Of a stretch of 64,000 nucleotides of DNA, positions 35,466 through 61,268 are shown in pieces. Below the pieces are notes generated by a model. That model had not been told where the DNA came from. It searched no databases and saw nothing but the letters and a program-made list of their open reading frames with translations. A program made the translations under genes and the position numbers. Source of the stretch: Halorubrum sp. 2020YC2 (GTDB lineage: Archaea > Halobacteriota > Halobacteria > Halobacteriales > Haloferacaceae); the NCBI RefSeq assembly GCF_018623055.1, contig NZ_CP076019.1, forward strand, positions 2,232,001 to 2,296,000, given 5' to 3'. Numbering within the stretch: position 1 is the first letter of the stretch; the number at the start of each line of letters is the position of its first letter.

Positions 35466-36583
35466 ATGAACCTCGACGAACTTCGATCCGCGCAGGCGAA
35501 GGAGCGCCGGAAGGACAGCCTCCAGCACCTGCGGGACTCGTTTTACGACGACGTGGGCGCGTACGTCGCGGACTTACGCGCCGCGCGCGACCGCCGCGCC
35601 GAGCAGGTCGAGAACCCGTTCGAGGACGACGACATCCGCCGGCTCTCCGACGAGGTGGAGACCGCCGAGGAGGTCGCGGAGGCGCTGTACGAGCGCCGGG
35701 TCGGCAAGGTCGTCAAGCTCGCCTCCTTCGCCGCGGCCGACATGTCCGTCGACGAGGAGGGGATGACGACCGAGGAGCGCCGGCTGTTCGACGACCTCGT
35801 CGAGCGCATCACCGCGAACAAGTCGGAGGTCCTCGACGTGCTCGCGGGCGAGTCCCCGGTAGCGAACGGCTCCGCGACGGGCGACGGGGCCCCAGACGAC
35901 ACGCCGGCCTCGGACGCCGCCCCGGCGCCGGACCCCCCGACGGACCGAGCGCCCGAGACACAGGCGACCCGATCGGCCGACGAGGCGAAGGCGACCGGCG
36001 CGGAGCCGACCGGCGCGGAGCCGACCGAGTCGCCGCCCGCCGACGGGGCGCGCTCGCCGGTGCGATGGGCGGCGACGACGGCGAGTCGAACCCCGACGCG
36101 TCGGCGGGGTCGCCCGAGGGCGGAGCGGTCCCGTCGGCCGGGCCCGGTGACGAGGCCGACGCCGAGACGACGCCGGTGCCGCCCGACCCGGCGCCCCCGG
36201 GAGCCGTCGGCGTCGGGGACGAAGGGAGCGAGGCCGACGGAACCGGTGACGCCGGCGCGGCCGACGCCGACCTCGGCGGCGACGCGGACGCGGAGCCGGA
36301 CCCCGGGGCGACGGCGGACGGCGGAGCGGTGCCCGAGACGGGAACGGGGGGCGGGCCGGCGCCCGAAACGAGCACGGACGACGGGTCGGACGACGTGCCG
36401 GACGCCGACTCCGGCGCGGCGGCGGCGGCCGAGCGGGCGACCGTCCGGATCACTCGCGACGTCGGGGCCATCTTCGGCGTCGACGAGCGGGAGTACGAAC
36501 TCGCCAGCGAGGACGTCGTCTCGCTCCCGGTCGAGAACGCCGACCCGCTGGTTCAGCGCGACGCCGCCGAGCGCATCGACTGA
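35466..36583 (+). CDS. gins: GINS complex protein, frame broken once
   Basis: An archaeal GINS (Gins15/51-type) protein of about 372 residues. The N-terminal helical A domain (NLDELRSAQAKERRKDSLQH) ends near residue 135 and a very long acidic, Ala/Pro/Thr-rich linker follows. The C-terminal B domain is the short beta domain VRITRDVGAIFGVDEREYEL to PLVQRDAAERID. The frame changes near 36056-36065, consistent with one lost G in the linker. GINS joins MCM and the RecJ/GAN protein at the replication fork. The linker is longer than usual for the family. Confidence 0.78.
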
Positions 36584-36685
36584 CGCCGGGGGTCTCTTTT
36601 CCCGCGGGGACGCGGCCGCGAGGGGTCGGGAGTCTGGAAAGCGTGACCGACGGACACTAACGCCGCGGGCGGCTACGGGCGCTCG

Positions 36686-37929
36686 ATGGAGTTGGAGTTC
36701 CTCGGCGGCGCCCGCGAGGTCGGCCGGAGCGCCCTCCTCGTCGACGACGCCCTCCTTCTGGACTACGGGCTCATGACGGCCGACCCGCCGCGGTACCCGG
36801 TCCGGGACCCCGAGCCGGAGGCGGTCGTCGCCTCGCACGGACACCTCGACCACGTCGGGGCGGTGCCCGCGCTGCTGAAGGGCGACCGCCGACCGCCGTC
36901 CACTGGACGCCGCCGACCGGCGAACTCGCGCGGACGCTGGCCGAGGACACGCTGAAGCTCCACGGCAACAGCCCGCTGTGTCCGTTCGGCGCCGAACACG
37001 TCGCGCGGCTGGGCGAGGTGAACGCCGGCACGGCTACGGCGACCCCTTCCGGTCGCGGGCGGAATCGACGGCGGCGGCTACGAGGTGACGCTGTTCTCGG
37101 CGGGACACATCCCCGGCTCCGCGCACGTCCTCGTCGACGACGGGGACACGCGGCTGCTGTACTCCGGGGACTTCCACACCGACGACCAGCGGCTGGTCGC
37201 GGGGACGACGGCGCGCCCCGACGCCGACGTCGTCGTCTGCGAGTCCACCTACGCCGACGTGACCCACGAGGAGCGCGCGGCGGTGGAGTCGGCGTGGGCC
37301 GAGCGCGTCGAGCGGACGATATGGGAGGGCGGCACCGTCGTCGCGCCCGCGTTCGCCATCGGCCGGACGCAGGAGCTGCTCCTCGTCGCGGCCGCGGACG
37401 GCCTCACGCCGTACGTCGACGGGATGGGCGTCGAGGTGACCGAGATGCTCCGAGGGTACCCGTCGTTCCTGCGCGACTCGGACGCGTTCGACGCGGCGGT
37501 CGGAAGGGCTCGCGCCGTCACGGGGCGCGACGGACAGCGCGAGCGGATCGCGGCCGAGAACGCCCTGATCGTCACCACCTCGGGGATGCTCGCGGGCGGC
37601 CCCGTCCACACGTACCTCCCGGAAATCCGGACGAACCCGACGAACCTCGTGACGCTGACGGTACCAAGTGGAGGGGACGCCGGGACGCGAGCTACAGGAG
37701 CGGGCAGTTGGAGCTGAACGGACGGGTTCAGCCCGTGAGCGCGCGGGTGGAGTCGTACGACTTCTCCGCGCACGCCGACCGCGAGGGGCTGGAGTCCTTT
37801 TTGGACGCCTACCGGGACGCGCGGGTGCTGGTGAACCACGGCGACCGCTGCGAGGCGTTCGCGGAGGACCTCCGAGCGGACGGGTTCGCGGCGAGCGCGC
37901 CCGAAATCGGGGAGCGGATCGGGTTGTGA
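36686..37929 (+). CDS. Metallo-beta-lactamase/beta-CASP ribonuclease, multiply frame-broken
   Basis: Across five breaks the gene encodes a beta-CASP nuclease of about 413 residues resembling archaeal CPSF2-type proteins without KH domains. Metal motif 2 is SHGHLDHVG, motif 3 is SAGHIPGSAHVL, motif 4 is YSGDFHTDDQR; then CESTYADVTHE and the beta-CASP block PAFAIGRTQELLLV and TTSGMLAGGPVHTY; GYQVEGTPGREL and SYDFSAHADREGL complete it. Breaks are near 36894, 37028, 37050, 37663 and 37707. Such enzymes cut or trim RNA 3' ends. Breaks in a conserved enzyme point to sequence errors. Confidence 0.75.
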
Positions 37930-37963
37930 GCCGCGTCGACCGCCGCGCGGCCGGCCGCTCCGT

Positions 37964-38521
37964 TCACTCCCGCTTCCGGAGTTCGGGCGGTTTCTCCAAG
38001 TTGCCGAGGCGAGTGCGCTCGCCGTAGTAGTAGTGGAGCGCGGCGGAGACCGCGAAGGCGGTGACCGCGAAGGCGGCGACGGCGGTGCCGTCGAGCGCGG
38101 CGAACAGGGGGCCTTGACCGCGACCGCGAGCGTGACGGCGCCAACAGCGCGGCGAGCCCGAGGTAGTAGAGGCTCCACGGGATCTCCCGCCCGCGGAGCA
38201 CCTCGATGTACACGTCGAGGTCGTCGAGGACCGGCGTGGGTTCGACCACCTTCGCCTCGTCGTCGTACTCGACCACGCCGCGCTCGTCGAGCTTCGGCAG
38301 GTGGGTGCGCGTGAGGACCGTGTGGACGTTGCGCCGGTCGTCGTAGCCGATCGTCTCGGGGTCGACGCCCAGCTCCCAGGCGGTGACGCGCGTCGAGAGG
38401 TCGGCCACGTCCATCGGCCGTCGGCGCGCTTCAGGGCGTGGATCGCGAAGCGGCGGCGGCGGTTCGCGAGCAGTTCGAATATCTCTCCTTCCGGCAGCGA
38501 TACGTCGCCCGTCGTTCCCAT
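37964..38521 (-). CDS. DUF7344-type winged-helix membrane protein, frame-broken
   Basis: From ATG 38521 (MGTTGDVSLPEGEIFELLAN) the translation reads RRRRFAIHALKRADG, changes frame near 38412, and continues DVADLSTRVTAWELGV and NVHTVLTRTHLPKLDERGVV, the winged-helix pattern of haloarchaeal DUF7344-like regulators. Further breaks near 38143 and 38108 precede two C-terminal membrane helices ending YYYGERTRLGNLEKPPEL. It is probably a membrane-tethered DNA-binding protein of about 187 residues. All three breaks fit lost bases. Confidence 0.62.
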   Translation of the reverse strand: MGTTGDVSLPEGEIFELLANRRRRFAIHALKRADGRWTWPTSRRASPPGSWASTPRRSATTTGATSTRSSRAPTCRSSTSAAWSSTTTRRRWSNPRRSSTTSTCTSRCSAGGRSRGASTTSGSPRCWRRHARGRGQGPLFAALDGTAVAAFAVTAFAVSAALHYYYGERTRLGNLEKPPELRKRE

Positions 38522-38946
38522 CGGGGTCGTCGAGAGCATCGTGTGGCGCGCGCCGACCGAGACCGCTGGCGGGTCTCCTGTTCGGCGGTTAACACTAACC
38601 CGTGTCCCAGACTACATAAATCGAGCCGACGTTTTAGCGGAGTGGAGGGGATATTCGGCGGGTATATCACCCCCTTCGGCCGGGTCAAGCGGTGCTTGAT
38701 GTGGCGAATTACGGGCTGAAACCGCGGTTTCGGCGTCGTTTCCGAAATCAGAAATGAACCGGGTTCGAGCGCGGGTCGAGGTCGGATCAAGCGGTGCCTG
38801 TGGCGGTTCGAGGCCGGGTCGTGATTTCTTCCGGGAGTTCCTGTGGCGCTTCGAGCGTGTCATAACGATAGGGGATAGGCTACATGGGGGAAGTGAAGCG
38901 GCCGACGCGGGACGGTCCCCGCGAGCCCGGTCGCGGACACACAACC
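38522..38946. other. Gene-free region before the SipW-type cluster, with direct repeats
   Basis: No credible gene. TCAAGCGGTGC occurs at 38685-38695 and 38787-38797. CTGTGGCGnTTCGAG occurs at 38798-38812 and 38841-38855 (14 of 15 identical). An AT-richer stretch (CATAACGATAGGGGATAGG, 38860-38880) before the first secreted-protein gene could hold its promoter. The repeats may be regulator sites. Confidence 0.35.
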
Positions 38947-39492
38947 ATGGAACGACGTAAGTTCGTAGTTGGCCTGGGTGCATTGGCTTCCGGAAGCGCG
39001 GCCGCGATGGGTACGGGCGCGTTCACGAGTGTGACGGCTAATCGGCAGGTCGACGTTAAGGTCGCCGAAGACGCCAACGCATACCTCGGGCTTCAGAATT
39101 CCGGGGACGCAAACGATCCGTACTTTGATGCGTCCGGTGACGAGTACTCGGTCGACTTCAATAGTATTCCTGACGATACCACTAATGGGACCGCCGGCGG
39201 CTCCGGTGTGAACCCGAACGCTGACACGATTGCGGAATCGGTTTTCCAGATTGTCAATCAGGGAACGCAGGAAGTTACCGTTTCCCTGTCCGGAGATGGC
39301 GATGTCTCGACTCAAGGCCGGTCGACTTCTGTTTCCGCTCCGAGCAATGATGGGATTAATGCGTCTCTCTCGGATGACGAGGCTGGAGACGCGACGCTCT
39401 CGCCGGGAGACTCCATCGACGTCGACTTCGCCATTAATTCCGGAACGTCAGATCTCAGTGGAACGCTCACGATCAGCGCAAACGACACCTAA
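38947..39492 (+). CDS. SipW/DUF1102-type secreted protein 1
   Basis: A 181-residue protein starting MERRKFVVGLGALASG. The N-terminus is a SipW-type signal: basic ERRK, a hydrophobic stretch, and GTGAFTSVTANRQV, the boundary motif shared by all four proteins in this cluster. The mature part is acidic and beta-rich, with VFQIVNQGTQEVTVSLSG as a family landmark. Such proteins are thought to be exported and form extracellular fibres or surface layers, like bacterial TasA/camelysin. No SipW-like peptidase lies in this window. Confidence 0.75.
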   Translation: MERRKFVVGLGALASGSAAAMGTGAFTSVTANRQVDVKVAEDANAYLGLQNSGDANDPYFDASGDEYSVDFNSIPDDTTNGTAGGSGVNPNADTIAESVFQIVNQGTQEVTVSLSGDGDVSTQGRSTSVSAPSNDGINASLSDDEAGDATLSPGDSIDVDFAINSGTSDLSGTLTISANDT

Positions 39493-39507
39493 AACAGGTG
39501 ACTGAAA

Positions 39508-40092
39508 ATGAACCGTAGACAGCTGTTGGCTGGCCTGGGTGCGGCCGCTGCGGGTGGCGGCGCAGCGCTTGGAACGGGCGCGTTCACGAGTGTAGAGGCA
39601 GATAGATCGGTTAACGTTAGTGTTGCCGATGAGGACCAAGCGTACCTCGCAATTTCTCCTGCGAGTAGCGCCAACTCGAATTTCGCGTTCCAGGACACGA
39701 GTAGTGGTGGGAAAAACCAACTGTCGCTGGATTTCAATGCCGTGAACGGCGTCACCGGTCAAGGTGTCGGCAATTCCTCGGACTACTCGTTCGACGGTGT
39801 GTTTGTAGTTGAAAATCAGGGAACCCAAGATCTAGATATTTATATTGAACAACTGAGCGCAGGTGACTTCGAGGACGGCCCTGGTACCGGGAACTCTCCA
39901 AATGGTACGCTAGATGTGGAGTTTTATCCGGGGAGCAGTTCCGACAGTCCACTCACCGCGTCTGATGCGGCTAGTTCCAACTCTGTGAGCGTTAGCCTAG
40001 GGAGTTCACAGCTCATCGGAGTCAATATCGATATCGGCAATGTCGATGTTAAAAGCTGGGAAGCGGACGTTACTATAGAGGCGGAAGGCTAG
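39508..40092 (+). CDS. SipW/DUF1102-type secreted protein 2
   Basis: A 194-residue paralog of the preceding protein, 15 bases downstream and so probably co-transcribed. It starts MNRRQLLAGLGAAAAGG with GTGAFTSVEADRSVNVSVAD at the signal boundary, then VFVVENQGTQDLDIYIEQ in the mature part. It lacks an added domain. Its base composition is lower in GC than the flanking housekeeping genes, suggesting acquired DNA. Confidence 0.75.
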   Translation: MNRRQLLAGLGAAAAGGGAALGTGAFTSVEADRSVNVSVADEDQAYLAISPASSANSNFAFQDTSSGGKNQLSLDFNAVNGVTGQGVGNSSDYSFDGVFVVENQGTQDLDIYIEQLSAGDFEDGPGTGNSPNGTLDVEFYPGSSSDSPLTASDAASSNSVSVSLGSSQLIGVNIDIGNVDVKSWEADVTIEAEG

Positions 40093-40111
40093 CTGAACCA
40101 ATTTTATTTCA

Positions 40112-40151
40112 CCCACGTTGGCGTACGGTGGTTCGATTCCGCCGGTGGGCA
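40112..40151 (+). other. tRNA acceptor/T-arm-like minihelix in the cluster
   Basis: Between two secreted-protein genes, GGTGG-TTCGATT-CCGCC (40127-40143) forms a perfect T arm with a standard loop. It is followed by GGTGGGC plus A (40144-40151), an acceptor-like 3' strand and discriminator base. CCCAC at 40112-40116 can pair with GTGGG at 40145-40149. There are no D or anticodon arms, so this is not a full tRNA. It could be a tRNA 3'-end remnant left at an integration site, or chance. Confidence 0.35.
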
Positions 40152-40179
40152 TCGCCCTTTGCAGGGCCACTTCCCGAAC

Positions 40180-41966
40180 ATGAAACGACGTACGCTGCTC
40201 ATCTCGATTGGCGGTGCGGCAGGCACAGCTGGCGTGATCGGAACTGGAGCGTTCACGAGCGTGGAGGCCGACCGCGACGTCTCGGTGACGGTCGCAAACG
40301 AGGAAAACGCCTATCTCGGAATCGAACCGTCACCGTCGTCGTCCGCGAACAGCGAGTTCGCGACACAGGATTCCAGTAATGGCGATCAGATCGCACTGAA
40401 CTTCGACGACTCGGGGAACAGCGGGAGCGGTGTCGGCCTGAGTTCGGTCTACGACTTCGACGACGTTTTCAGGATTACCAATCAGGGGACACAGACGATC
40501 TACGTCTGGGCGAATTTCAGTGGCGGCGACCTGAGCGACGACGATATCTGGTTCTATCCGGACGGCGAGTCCAGTCGAAAGCTGAACGACGGAGATAACA
40601 GCGTCGTGACGGTCCCGGTCGGTGAAACCGTCAAGATGGGCGTCCACATCGACACGAACGTCCTCGAATCGGAGGACGGGGATCAGACGCTCACAGCAAC
40701 ACTTACTGCTGATGTCGATGTTCCCACCGATTCGAACCCCTCCGATGGAGTCGGGGAAGACGCTGCCGTCGTCAGCAAAAATCCGGATGACGGCGAGTAC
40801 AGTTCGATCCAGTCCGCAATTGATGCCGTTGACGGGACGACGGTCTTGGTCGAGTCCGGTACGTACGAAGAAAGTGTGACAATTGATGTTGAGGGTCTGA
40901 CGCTCAAAGCCGCCGGGGACGCCTCACCGACGATTGACGCGTCAGGTATCAACGGCGGTTCGATTCCCGTGCTGGTGATGATGCAGACGGTGTGACCGTG
41001 GACGACGAGAACATCGAGTTCCTGTCTGGGATTGACGTGGGTGTAGACTTCAGTGACTACGAGCCTGGCATCACCGAGACCGACGCTGACGCGATCGTCA
41101 CCGGTGACGCTGCCGAAACTGACGAATTCAACAGCATCGGCGCTGCACTGGATCAAAAAGGCGCAGACACCACGGTGCTCGTGAAGTCCGACTACGACGC
41201 TAGCAACGAGAATTCGAATAATGATGGCAGTAATAGTGCCCTAATAAGTATCGTTCATAAGAACGTTGAAGTCATCTCCCAAGAGGGCCCAACGAAAACA
41301 GTGATTGATGAGAGGCCAGATGCGACCGGTGGCGGCCGAGCCGTTGACATCAACGCGGCGAATGTTGTGTTCAAAGGATTTGACGTGTCCAATGCAGCTC
41401 AGGAAGGCATCGTTGTCACCGGTGTTGAGAATGCAAAGGGCATCGAAATCACGGACAACAAGGTCACCTCAGACACCGATGGTATTCTGGTCTCAGAGTA
41501 TGGCCCGGAAGGCTTCGACTCTGCTAGCACGGACGGTATTGTGATTGAAAACAATGAGATTAATCATAAGAGATTTGGGGTTTCTCTCAGTAACGGTGCT
41601 ACGGAACCAGTCGTTAAGCACAATACGATAATCGGCAATGGAAATGAAAGAGGAATCGCTCTGAATCGTGATGGGGAGGGAGTTACTAATGCGACTGTTG
41701 AGGCAAACCTCGTTGAGACCAGCTACGTCGGATTCCAGCGTAACGACGACGGCAGCACGGTTGAGAGTCTGAGCAACAACCACTTCATCAACAATGACCT
41801 GCTGGCCATTGCAAATAGCGCGTCTGGTCAGCTTGACGCTACTGAGAATTTCTTTGGCACTGAAGATCGACAGACCATCCAAGATGAAAAAATCAGTGGC
41901 AGTGGAGGAGATACCGTCTTTGATCCGTTCGCTGCTGTCGAGATTGACCCGGACGCCGGTAAGTAA
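40180..41966 (+). CDS. SipW/DUF1102-type protein 3 fused to a beta-helix domain, one frame break
   Basis: From ATG 40180 (MKRRTLLISIGG) with the same GTGAFTSVEADRDVSVTVA signal boundary and VFRITNQGTQTIYV landmark. After about residue 200 comes SIQSAIDAVDGTTVLVESGTYEE, the entry of a pectate-lyase-like parallel beta-helix. It continues past a break near 40975 (a lost G) with repeats such as IEITDNKVTSDTDGILVSE and GIVIENNEINHKRFGVSLSN. Total about 595 residues. The beta-helix may bind or cut polysaccharide. The lower-GC sequence suggests a transferred module. Confidence 0.75.
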
Positions 41967-42066
41967 GCAGGCTACCTACCTACTCCTTCGATGTGACCGC
42001 TCGCTAACTGACTGCGATTTTTCCTCCATTCTTTCAATACCCGGAAAGCGACAGCCACAGGACTAT

Positions 42067-42245
42067 TCAAGTACTGATACCCGTCTCGTCGTAAATCTCC
42101 CTGAGTTGCTCCGGGCTATAGTCCAAGTAATGCTTCTGCAACGCTTGACGGCGTTCGCCCGGCGAAGGCATCGATGTACTTCGCGTCGACACCACACCGA
42201 CTCATGTCTGTCGCGAACCATCGGCGGCTTTTCTGAATCGTTATC
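42067..42245 (-). pseudogene. C-terminal remnant of a tyrosine recombinase (integrase)
   Basis: In the 470-base gap 41967-42437, minus-strand translation gives RRWFATDMSRCGVDAKYIDA, then FAGRTPSSV and, after one frame change near 42140, HYLDYSPEQLREIYDETGIS followed by a stop. This is the usual C-terminal end of haloarchaeal phage-type integrases, with the last conserved Tyr region. No N-terminal part is found, so it is a remnant. It marks past integration beside the cluster. The rest of the gap (to 42437) shows no gene. Confidence 0.55.
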
Positions 42246-42437
42246 TTCACACAGGTCTACTCAGACAGGTACCGGAATTTGTCGTTCACGGAATCACAAC
42301 CACACCCTTCAGAGCCATCAGGATGCTCCTGAACCGGTTCGACCGACTCATAACAAGGTGGGTAGAGTCGGATCGTCGTGGTAAGAGAGCCATGCGTGAT
42401 TCGGGATCGACCCCGGTCACGCTGGACGCAACCACCA

Positions 42438-43675
42438 ATGGAACGACGCAAGTTCATCCTCGCAATCGGCGGTATCGTAAGCACCGGCGCCGCGGTCGGG
42501 TCCGGCGCGTTCACCAGCGTCGAAGCGACCCGCGACGTCTCCGTCTCGGTCGCGGACGACGCCAGCGCCTACCTCGCGATGGAACCGTTGTCCTCCCCCA
42601 ACGGAGCCAGTTCGCCGCCACCGACGCGACGTCCTCGCGCTGGACTTTCCGAGAGCGGCAACGACGGCGCGGGCCTCGGCACGGACTCGGTCTACGACTT
42701 CGATAAGGTGTTCCAGATAGCCAACCAGGGCACCCAAGGGGTGTACGTCTGGGCGACGTTCGGCGGTTCGACGGGCGATCTCACCGTGGGCGACGAGGAC
42801 ACCGACGTCTGGCTCTACCCGAACGGCGACCCCGACAACAAACTTCGCGACAGCGAAGACGACGTGCTCTACCTGCCGACCGGCTCGTCGGCCGACATCG
42901 GCGTCCACGTCGACACGCACGACCTCGGCGTCGACGACGATCAGGAGCTGACGATGACCGTTCGAGCCGACGTGAACAACCCCGCACAGGGCGACGTGGT
43001 CGGCGGCGGCGGGACGGTCGTCGAGGGACCGGCCGACGGACTCGTGAGCTACTGGCCGCTCGACGACGTCGAGAGCGGAACCGCCGTCGACGCGGTCGGA
43101 ACGAACGACGGGAATGTCGAGGGGTCAGTTCCGTTGACGGGAAAGTAGGAAACGCGGGAGCGTTCGACGGGAGCGACGATTACGTGGGAATCCCTGACGA
43201 TCCGAGCCTCGATCTCACGGAGTCGCTAAGTCTCGCCGCGTGGGTGAAACCCGCCAGCGGTCAAGAAGGGTACGAGCGGATCATCTCCCGTGAAAAGGCT
43301 GGGGGCGGGAACCGACAATACAATATCGGGCTGGATCAGAGCGCAACAGAGCCGCGGACGGTCGTCGATACAACCGCTGAAGACGGAGTCGAAGTTTTCC
43401 GGAGCGATTTCAGTTACGGACGGAGAGTGGCATCACGTCGCGATGACGTTCGAGAGCGGTGACGCGGTTCGTCTCTACTTAGACGGGAGTGAGGTAGACG
43501 AAACGTCAGTCGGCACCGGTGACACGCTCGTGAGTCGTTTCCTCGCAAGTGGTTTTAGGCGCGCCGGCACAGCTGGATCGGCTCTTTCGAGGGTCGTATC
43601 GACGACGCTCGTATTTACGATCGTGCGCTCTCGAAGAACGAAGTGTCGGATCTGGTTACCGAAACGGACGTGTAA
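42438..43675 (+). CDS. SipW/DUF1102-type protein 4 fused to a LamG domain, frame-broken
   Basis: From ATG 42438 (MERRKFILAIGGIVSTG), signal boundary GSGAFTSVEATRDVSVSVAD and landmark VFQIANQGTQGVYVWATF. Breaks near 42604 and 42640 cancel each other. After about residue 195 (DGLVSYWPLDDVESGTAVDA) comes a laminin-G/concanavalin-like domain: AGAFDGSDDYVGIPDDPSLD, LTESLSLAAWVKPASGQ, VTDGEWHHVAMTFESGDA, VRLYLDGSEVDE, RIYDRALSKNEVSDL. More breaks are near 43130, 43410 and 43535-43580. The stop is TAA at 43673. LamG domains bind sugars, which suits an outer surface fibre. Confidence 0.68.
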
Positions 43676-44069: not shown

Positions 44070-44946
44070 ATGACCGACGAAGCCGAGCGCGGCGCCCCCC
44101 CGGGCGACCGCGCCGACGACGCCGCCGTTCCCCCCGTCGCGGACCGCGCGGACGACGTTGCCGAGCGCGCGGCCGTGGCGGTTCGCGCCGCGGAGGCGGG
44201 CGCCGAAGTCGCGAACGAGAGCTTCCGCAGCGACATCGCGGTGGAGACGAAAGGCGAGGACGACGTGGTGACCGAGGCCGACCGCGCCGCCCAGCGCACC
44301 GTCATCGAGGCGATCCGGGAGTCGTACCCGGCGACGCGATAGTGGGCGAGGAGGAAGACGAGCGCAAGACCGTGCCCATTCGGGCGCCGCGTGGGTGATC
44401 GACCCCATCGATGGGACGAACAACTACGTCCGCGACGTCCGCGTGTGGGCCACCGCGGTCGCGGCCGTCGTCGACGGCGAACCGGTGGCGGCCGCGATCG
44501 TCGCGCCCGCGCTCGGTGACACCTACACCGCCGACGCCACGGGTGCGTACCGCAACGGCGAGCCGATATCGGTGAGCGACGCCGCCGAGCCCCGCGACGC
44601 CGTCGTCGACCCGACGATCTGGTGGGAGTACGACGCGCGCGACGAGTACGCCCGCGCCTGCGAGGCGATCGTCTCCCGCTTCGGGGACATGCGCCGGCTC
44701 GGCGCCGCGCAGGTGGTACTCCCGACCGTCGCGGCCGGGGGACTTGAGGGGACGATCACGAACGTCGCGGCGAACCCCTGGGACACGGTTGCCGGCGTGC
44801 TCGTCATCCGGCAGGCCGGCGGGCGCGTGACTGACTTGGAAGGGGAGCGGTGGCGGCACGACTCGAAGGGGCTCGTCGCCTCGAACGGCACCCTCCACGA
44901 CGAGGTGCTCGCGGCCGCGAAGAGATCGAATCGGACTGATAGGTAG
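44070..44946 (+). CDS. Inositol monophosphatase-family enzyme, frame broken twice
   Basis: About 293 residues. A 40-residue Ala/Asp-rich head is followed by FRSDIAVETKGEDDVVTEAD, the first metal motif after a break near 44336 (VGEEEDER), and after another near 44384 the diagnostic WVIDPIDGTNNYVRD. Next come GAAQVVLPTVAAGGLEGTIT and NPWDTVAGVLVIRQAGGRVT. The family removes phosphate from inositol phosphates or fructose-1,6-bisphosphate with Mg2+; archaeal members often do both. Both breaks fit one lost base. Confidence 0.82.
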
Positions 44947-59897: not shown

Positions 59898-60718
59898 TCA
59901 TAACATCTCACTGTTTTCTATCATATATTTAAAACCACGAAGCGTATTCTCGCCGTTCGAGGTGATGTGAGCGACCTTTCGCCTTCCTTGCTGGTCAAGG
60001 CTGACGGAGCCGTCCTCCACGAGTGGGTTGAGAATCACCGAATCGAGTTTCCGATACTTTCCTTTAATATCACCACCTTGGTAACCAGCGATGAACGGTA
60101 GGTCTTGGCTTTCTGCGTATCCGATGAGCCGCTTCTTTGATACCGGCCCCTCCTCAGCAATGTACGCGAGCATCTGTACTTGCTCAGGGGTGGGCGCATC
60201 GATAGGATAAGTCGGTAGGTTTGAGATATTAGTGACGTTCCGAGCGACCGGCTCCTGTCGGTGGTCACCGTAGGTATCCGCGCTCACGTAGTACGGGGTA
60301 GCCGCCTCCGTGACCATACAGGCGATCATCCCGGCGATGGCAGTGACTTTCCCACCTGTGGCCAGATTAACGTATACATCGTCGTGATCGTACTTTTGAA
60401 TCAGCCCGGCGATCGTGCCGAGCGCATCGTAGAGGTCGAATATATCGGCATTTACCTCCGCCACTTGGACGGCGGATTCGTCGAAGGCCTCGAAGATATC
60501 ATCGTAGTATTCGGGATAGTTCTCGGGATCGTCTCTGCTGTGTTTTACAAGCACTACTGTGTCCGCTCCCATCCGGACGGGGGAACAACGACGCGATCGC
60601 GTTCGTAGCCCAACGGGATGATGTGGACACGGTCGCGCACATCCATGTCCATCTCAACACTAGATGACGCCATCGAGTCAGCGGGTCCGGGAGATTCTCC
60701 GGTGCTATCGTTGGTCAT
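59898..60718 (-). CDS. CARF-like/winged-helix regulator (DUF6293, HFX_2341-type), one frame break
   Basis: The clean frame gives 224 residues from GADTVVLVKHSRDDPENYPE to NSEML. Upstream, after a break near 60585 in a run of five C, a second frame reads MDVRDRVHIIPLGYERDRVV back to an ATG at 60718, so the intact protein has about 273 residues. The N-terminal Rossmann-like part carries VYVNLATGGKVTAIAG, resembling the N-x-TGG-K loop of CARF nucleotide sensors. The C-terminal part is a winged helix (PEQVQMLAYIAEEGPVSKKR). The domain pair suggests a ligand-controlled transcription factor. The break could be a polymerase or sequence slip. Confidence 0.7.
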
Positions 60719-61268
60719 ACCGACGTCTAAGCGCTATTTATTGAAGATAGTTGTCTTATTGACGTACTACTGGTGACGATGAGAACATTGTCACGTTGTC
60801 AGCATAGTATACAAAACCATGAGCCACTTCGGTAATACTGGGCACCGCCGGACCGCCTCCAATAGGCGGCACGGTCCCCGTGCTCGGCCCTCCATCGAGA
60901 GATCGTATCGGTTCTCGGTTTGATTCTCCCCTCATTTTGGGGTGAATAGCCGCCACAGTCCGTGGATGATCCCGATGGGGATTCTTGGGATGGGGAACCC
61001 ACTCCAATTCGACCGATTAGTCTAATACCGCCGGTATACCGGCGGAATATCAGATGGGTTTTGCGAAAGGCGATACTCCCAGCTTTTCTTATTGTAATAA
61101 TCACGAGACCTGTCGGTTCCGGTTGTGATTTGGATTCAGGACTTCCCCTCTCAGTCGGCTCGCAACTGCCGGCAGTGGTTTCTCTCAGCTAGCGCGTGTC
61201 TGGCACTATTTCATCGTCAACCGGCCATATCAAGACAAATCACCGGCAGACGCGGTGGGATTCGCGTT
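60719..61268. other. Gene-free, AT-richer region with palindromes
   Basis: No credible gene. CAATAAATAGCG (minus strand, near 60735-60746) is a likely promoter of the regulator gene. CCGCCTCCAATAGGCGG (60853-60869) is a small hairpin. A perfect 18-bp palindrome, CCGCCGGTATACCGGCGG, lies at 61028-61045. Lower GC than the flanks suggests transferred or decaying DNA. Confidence 0.4.

Follow-up and report, generated by a model that had tools for sequence, protein, structure and literature searches.

The chromosome of Halorubrum sp. 2020YC2 (3.06 Mb, a single contig) contains a second, satellite tafi cluster, which lies within the 64-kb stretch of DNA analysed here (the window) and is devoid of a SipW-type peptidase gene. 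The domain common to its four genes is almost certainly that of Tafi (Tat-fimbria) pilins. Taken as a whole, the cluster is likely to provide pilins, two of them with C-terminal passengers, that are processed by a SipW-type peptidase acting in trans and are encoded on a transcript that is itself processed at a tRNA-like element (t-element). An unnamed set of secreted proteins thereby becomes a testable pilus system with functional ends that appear to be exchangeable, in a group of archaea for which such fibres (Tat-fimbriae) were described only recently, in 2025.

Organization of the cluster

The four paralogs are encoded on the same strand (Table 1). Sequence comparison confirmed in all four proteins the motifs noticed in the sequence-only reading, the boundary motif G[TS]GAFTSV and the landmark NQGTQ; each protein also begins with a putative twin-arginine signal. 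Across the shared domain the other paralogs are 36-51% identical to gene 3, and the best named match for the domain of gene 3 is in Halorubrum halophilum B8 (95% identity). The G+C content of the segment is 0.51-0.63, compared with about 0.70 in most of the window. A low-G+C patch is also present at 60001-61000 (0.55), with a 224-aa frame at 59898-60572 (minus strand).

Genes 1 and 2 are intact frames. The domains expected behind the shared module of the other two, a beta-helix (PF13229) and a LamG domain (PF13385), are both present, the latter at 3e-8 and 1e-10 in two reading frames; but neither fusion forms a single open frame in this assembly (see section on frameshifts).

Table 1. Features of the satellite tafi cluster and its surroundings (positions in the window)
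Feature	Position	Strand	Evidence
Divergent DUF7344 protein, broken frame; usual neighbour of tafi clusters	37809-38539	-	PF24035 1.1e-15
Gene 1, single-domain Tafi-type pilin with putative twin-arginine signal and GTGAFTSV	38947-39492	+	NCBIfam TafE 3.5e-15, below cut-off
Gene 2, single-domain Tafi-type pilin	39508-40092	+	DUF1102 2.1e-5; TafE 5.9e-20; TAT_signal_seq 0.031; model matches PDB 9p0a
Gene 3 cassette: t-element, leader, Tafi domain and first beta-helix coil	40107-40904	+	About 90% DNA identity to H. halophilum
t-element between genes 2 and 3, 40 nt	40111-40150	+	Covariance model R1, 56.5 bits, E 1.9e-10
Small leader hairpin GCCCT-TTGC-AGGGC, between t-element and start codon	40154-40167	+	Fold
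Gene 3, Tafi domain (40180-40731) and right-handed beta-helix, one frameshift	40180-41966	+	PF13229 2.6e-8
Gene 4 cassette: upstream region and Tafi domain	42296-43111	+	88% DNA identity to H. halophilum
Gene 4, Tafi domain and LamG (concanavalin-like) domain, several frameshifts	42438-43675	+	PF13385; intact H. halophilum counterpart

Identity of the shared domain

A sequence profile (A2) recovers all four paralogs with E-values of 8e-65 or better, all four being among its own rows. The NCBIfam models (June 2026) for TafE and TafA also match all four; no match to TafA, TafC or TafE exceeds the curated cut-off, the best being to TafE at 71.7 bits versus 155, and the paralogs are thus superfamily members rather than TafA or TafE equivalogs. 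The set had originally been assigned to DUF1102, which is correct for genes 2 and 3 by the Pfam cut-off, whereas gene 4 matches weakly and gene 1 has no Pfam DUF1102 match. No mention of DUF1102 was found in the literature searched. A pair of arginines followed by a hydrophobic stretch is present in all four proteins, and the TAT_signal_seq model (TIGR01409) matches gene 2 only, just under the cut-off.

An AlphaFold2 model of the gene 2 product (97 sequences, pLDDT 81) has as its best match in the PDB the Tafi pilus of Natrinema sp. J7-2 (9p0a; Foldseek E 1.6e-6, TM 0.59), followed by bundling pili (7ueg, 9e-5) and a thread (7pnb, 9e-4), all three of which are donor-strand filaments. The chain of 9p0a is likewise matched by sequence, at 4.5e-29 with profile A3 and 2.1e-14 with phmmer. 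Residues 28-46, immediately past the signal, are without a strand in the modelled monomer, consistent with a donor strand that would become ordered only in the polymer. The model of the LamG fusion (pLDDT 68) yielded a lectin-like C-terminal domain in the fold search, and nothing further. Of the fibre or surface-layer system that had been proposed, the fibre is favoured and predicted to be of the Tafi type; an S-layer or unknown surface layer is ruled out by the fold and sequence match to 9p0a, which also places a set once considered unfamiliar among the Tat-fimbriae.

Tat-exported fimbriae with TafA as the core component are attributed to Galeva et al. (iScience 2025, 28:111793), as cited in PMC12687288. 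The window cluster shares with haloarchaeal tafi the pilin domain (by fold and sequence), a putative Tat-type signal and, in relatives, the linkage to a SipW-type peptidase and other tafi genes. It differs in being a satellite without SipW or anchor gene, in having two pilins with a beta-helix or LamG domain, and in scoring below the NCBIfam equivalog cut-offs. AbpA bundling pili of Pyrobaculum (7ueg) and Sulfolobus threads (7pnb) are also donor-strand filaments of single-domain subunits, but belong to another archaeal phylum and give a lower structural match. Donor-strand assembly has been described for TasA and related archaeal fibres (PMC9674648). The TasA/TapA/SipW fibres of Bacillus subtilis (PMC9674648) resemble the present system in secreted subunits, SipW-type processing and donor-strand exchange, which here are predicted from the genes; they differ in being bacterial, and the SipW-cognate signal (TIGR04088) has no match anywhere in the host genome.

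SipW-type peptidase and related loci

The absence of a SipW-type peptidase from the 64-kb window, stated in the sequence-only reading, was borne out. The same chromosome encodes one at 216260-216646 (above cut-off), within the canonical tafi locus of the host at 210-219 kb, whose own pilins are degenerate. Degenerate and partly duplicated copies of the tafi pilin and of DUF7344 adjoin the intact SipW gene (about 211-213 kb; L007:6880-9203). A third tafi gene of the host, at about 1.61 Mb (L008:6825-8968), lacks its C-terminal part, the break lying immediately ahead of a transposase-like gene on the other strand. The window cluster also has no TafF-like anchor gene.

Clusters with an adjacent signal peptidase do occur in other haloarchaea: within the stretches fetched, SipW is found in 41 of the 73 tafi loci of named relatives and DUF7344 in 51. 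Typically, a divergent DUF1102 gene and a DUF7344 gene come first and are followed by at least one tafi pilin, an anchored TafF-like protein, a rhomboid-like protein, a SipW-type peptidase and, last, DUF5305. The DUF7344 protein is likely to be a regulator. H. coriense and H. aquaticum likewise have such clusters with no SipW in the stretch fetched (L057, L059 and L074). The H. halophilum counterpart of gene 4 is at a contig end, directly upstream of an anchor gene and SipW, and those of genes 1-3 end another contig; the four are therefore likely to form a single cluster that was split by the assembly.

Based on the signals and on this linkage, it is probable that Tat exports the folded precursors and that the SipW-type peptidase of the 216-kb locus cuts them in trans at the GTGAF boundary.

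Exchange of C-terminal domains

Comparison with H. halophilum reveals cassettes at the 5' ends of genes 3 and 4 (Table 1). DNA on both sides of the gene 3 cassette is unalignable, and beyond the gene 4 cassette the sequences diverge within LamG. Two genes of H. coriense encode Tafi domains that are 97% identical and C-termini that are largely different, two paralogs of another genome share 80% of the domain and have nothing in common after it, and one conserved Halorubrum gene occurs with two C-terminal types (about 38% identical) on domains that are 90-96% identical. C-terminal swapping behind a conserved Tafi module is supported by these comparisons of sequence.

At least 120 residues follow the domain in 66 of the 204 Tafi-domain proteins encoded in the fetched loci. 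Passengers tested against Pfam comprise beta-helix, LamG, GLUG repeats, GH97 with a glucodextranase C-module, VWA, and DUF4350/SNase/LTD. In H. coriense, a protein of 1300 aa (L064:9998-13897) combines a tafi pilin domain with a complete GH97 and a glucodextranase C-module, i.e. an enzyme on a pilin. The proposal of interchangeable C-terminal modules, several of a sugar-binding or sugar-cutting type, thus holds, with LamG in the window and GH97 in this paralog. An assembly error had been considered as a source of the fusions; for LamG this does not apply, since the fusion is intact in H. halophilum B8 (419 aa, L058:813-2072) and the architecture is genuine. The pilus type itself is already known and the passenger-bearing, recombining subunits are a variant of it; no description of such subunits was found in the literature searched, which did not cover Galeva et al. 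(2025).

In the arrangement that we propose, genes 1 and 2 would encode single-domain pilins or adapters and genes 3 and 4 pilins bearing a C-terminal passenger (beta-helix or LamG), all joined by donor-strand exchange. The passenger would be displayed on the fibre, where it might bind or process polysaccharide or surface ligands, and would turn over by recombination downstream of the conserved 5' cassette. A position at the end of the fibre rather than at its side is moderately favoured. It is less likely that the fused subunits decorate the fibre here and there along its length, or are surface proteins for which the Tafi domain serves only in export and docking. Genes 3 and 4 retain the full N-terminal putative donor-strand segment and could therefore sit inside the chain, and some paralogs carry whole enzymes (GH97, nuclease/LTD); both points speak for this reading. 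The minority status of fused genes (66/204), on the other hand, fits a minor, special subunit, although it does not separate tip from decoration.

Frameshifts

Gene 3 requires one frameshift, near 40966-40995, and gene 4 several, at about 42600-42650, 43140, 43400 and 43550; the strain may therefore not make the fused subunits. Neither these frameshifts nor the tRNA-like element had been noticed in the sequence-only reading, whose observation and interpretation were otherwise each confirmed in part. The frameshifts might be due to sequencing error or to decay. If the cluster is decaying, genes 3 and 4 would be pseudogenes and only genes 1 and 2 would act, a scenario that we regard as a real but lesser possibility. 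It would account for the number of frameshifts, for the in-frame TAG in the 715-aa frame of the H. halophilum gene 3 counterpart, and for the related host tafi gene that is followed by a transposase-like gene. Against it, the assembly may contain indel errors, given that ordinary neighbouring genes also appear frame-broken, namely inositol monophosphatase and metallo-hydrolase-like frames (44070-44946 and 35466-37929). In addition, a crude count gives 34 apparent frame switches in 98 kb here versus 36 in about 266 kb of relatives' loci, pointing to sequencing error as part of the cause.

A tRNA-like element between genes 2 and 3

In haloarchaea, t-elements are already known. The element between genes 2 and 3 consists of a 12-bp stack that resembles the acceptor and T-stem of tRNA, a T-loop (TTCGATT) and a conserved GG past the 5' strand, with the consensus ACCCAC-GCTGG-variable-CGGCGG-TTCGATT-CCGCCG-GTGGGT. 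The GG could contact the T-loop, as in the elbow of tRNA. A covariance model was built from 24 copies; it finds matches in 44 of 60 genomes of the family and in 9 of 80 genomes drawn from the phylum, all nine belonging to the same order. The copy in the window is the only significant one in the host genome, and by eye a copy with the same architecture precedes the host's own 5S rRNA gene.

The seed copies had been chosen by their pairing; owing to this selection bias, pairing was recounted on copies retrieved with a sequence-only model, itself trained on the same seed. Among copies found by sequence alone, 98% of cells pair, and over 97 distinct copies 34 cells show changes in both partners of a pair, versus 7.1 in shuffles (none of 500 shuffles reached this value). 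The element is very probably a functional structured RNA. ARAGORN calls several copies tRNAs and finds no tRNA in the window. A true tRNA gene was rejected based on the negative ARAGORN result for the window, on the single copy in the genome and on a middle part that is too short. Rfam yielded no family match, only a chance-level match to the T-arm at 40127-40143 (E 2.3).

Fifteen of the 118 matches examined sit 1-2 nt upstream of 5S rRNA, and 90 of the 103 that are not associated with rRNA precede a twin-arginine gene at a median distance of 24 nt (6.5% for random positions). A same-strand frame ends within 300 nt upstream in 73 of 79 copies, with a median gap of 34 nt and a random control of 55%, indicating that the copies are intercistronic. 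Between t-element and start codon, a hairpin is present in 60 of 67 trailers family-wide, where 32.5 would be expected. The preceded genes include about 19 tafi pilins and, by signal pattern, at least 58 TasA-like proteins; a widespread structured RNA of haloarchaea thus marks pilin genes, a link that may be new.

Possible processing of the transcript

The association suggests that enzymes of tRNA maturation process pilus mRNAs. The tRNase Z of Haloferax volcanii reportedly cleaves the t-element upstream of 5S rRNA (Hoelzle et al. 2008). This 5S element is found by the same covariance model (15 cases, 1-2 nt before 5S), but it is part of an rRNA operon, whereas the window copy is situated between protein genes of a pilin operon. 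The likeness to a reported tRNase Z substrate favours cleavage, and by analogy the t-element is somewhat more likely than not to be a cutting site for tRNase Z or RNase P in the mRNA. Cleavage, most likely by tRNase Z and perhaps by RNase P, would leave the downstream cistron with a 5' end of its own, protected by the hairpin, and might set the ratios of the subunits. The odds seem about even for a broader proposal, in which a dedicated t-element of 5S-leader design divides the transcripts of haloarchaeal Tat/SipW-type pilus and surface-protein operons, a tRNase Z cut before the hairpin, about 24 nt upstream of the starts, fixes the proportions of the subunits, and during passenger exchange the element moves together with the 5' pilin cassette.

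Two other roles deserve consideration. An uncut cis-regulatory structure, bound by a protein or a tRNA-binding factor and controlling translation, would fit a location near the start codon, from which the element is separated by a small hairpin; this we consider unlikely, as the resemblance to the 5S leader element argues for a cut. More doubtful still is a remnant of, or a target for, recombination or integration that marks sites of cassette exchange, comparable to the tRNA ends used by archaeal integrases. The gene 3 cassette does begin right at the element, yet the covariation kept across the 97 distinct copies, the constant location (medians of 24 nt to the next start codon and 34 nt from the preceding stop) and the same architecture 1-2 nt before 5S rRNA argue against such an origin, and cleavage is preferred here over both.

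Outside the window, four further genes of relatives that have a t-element in front were tested with TIGR04088, and three of them, which are TasA-like by signal pattern, scored above the cut-off. Several loci (L181, L190, L196, L203, L216, L224 and others) encode arrays of TasA-like proteins of the twin-arginine/SipW type (400-700 aa) with a t-element before each gene, and some of these proteins seem to hold VWA-like inserts.
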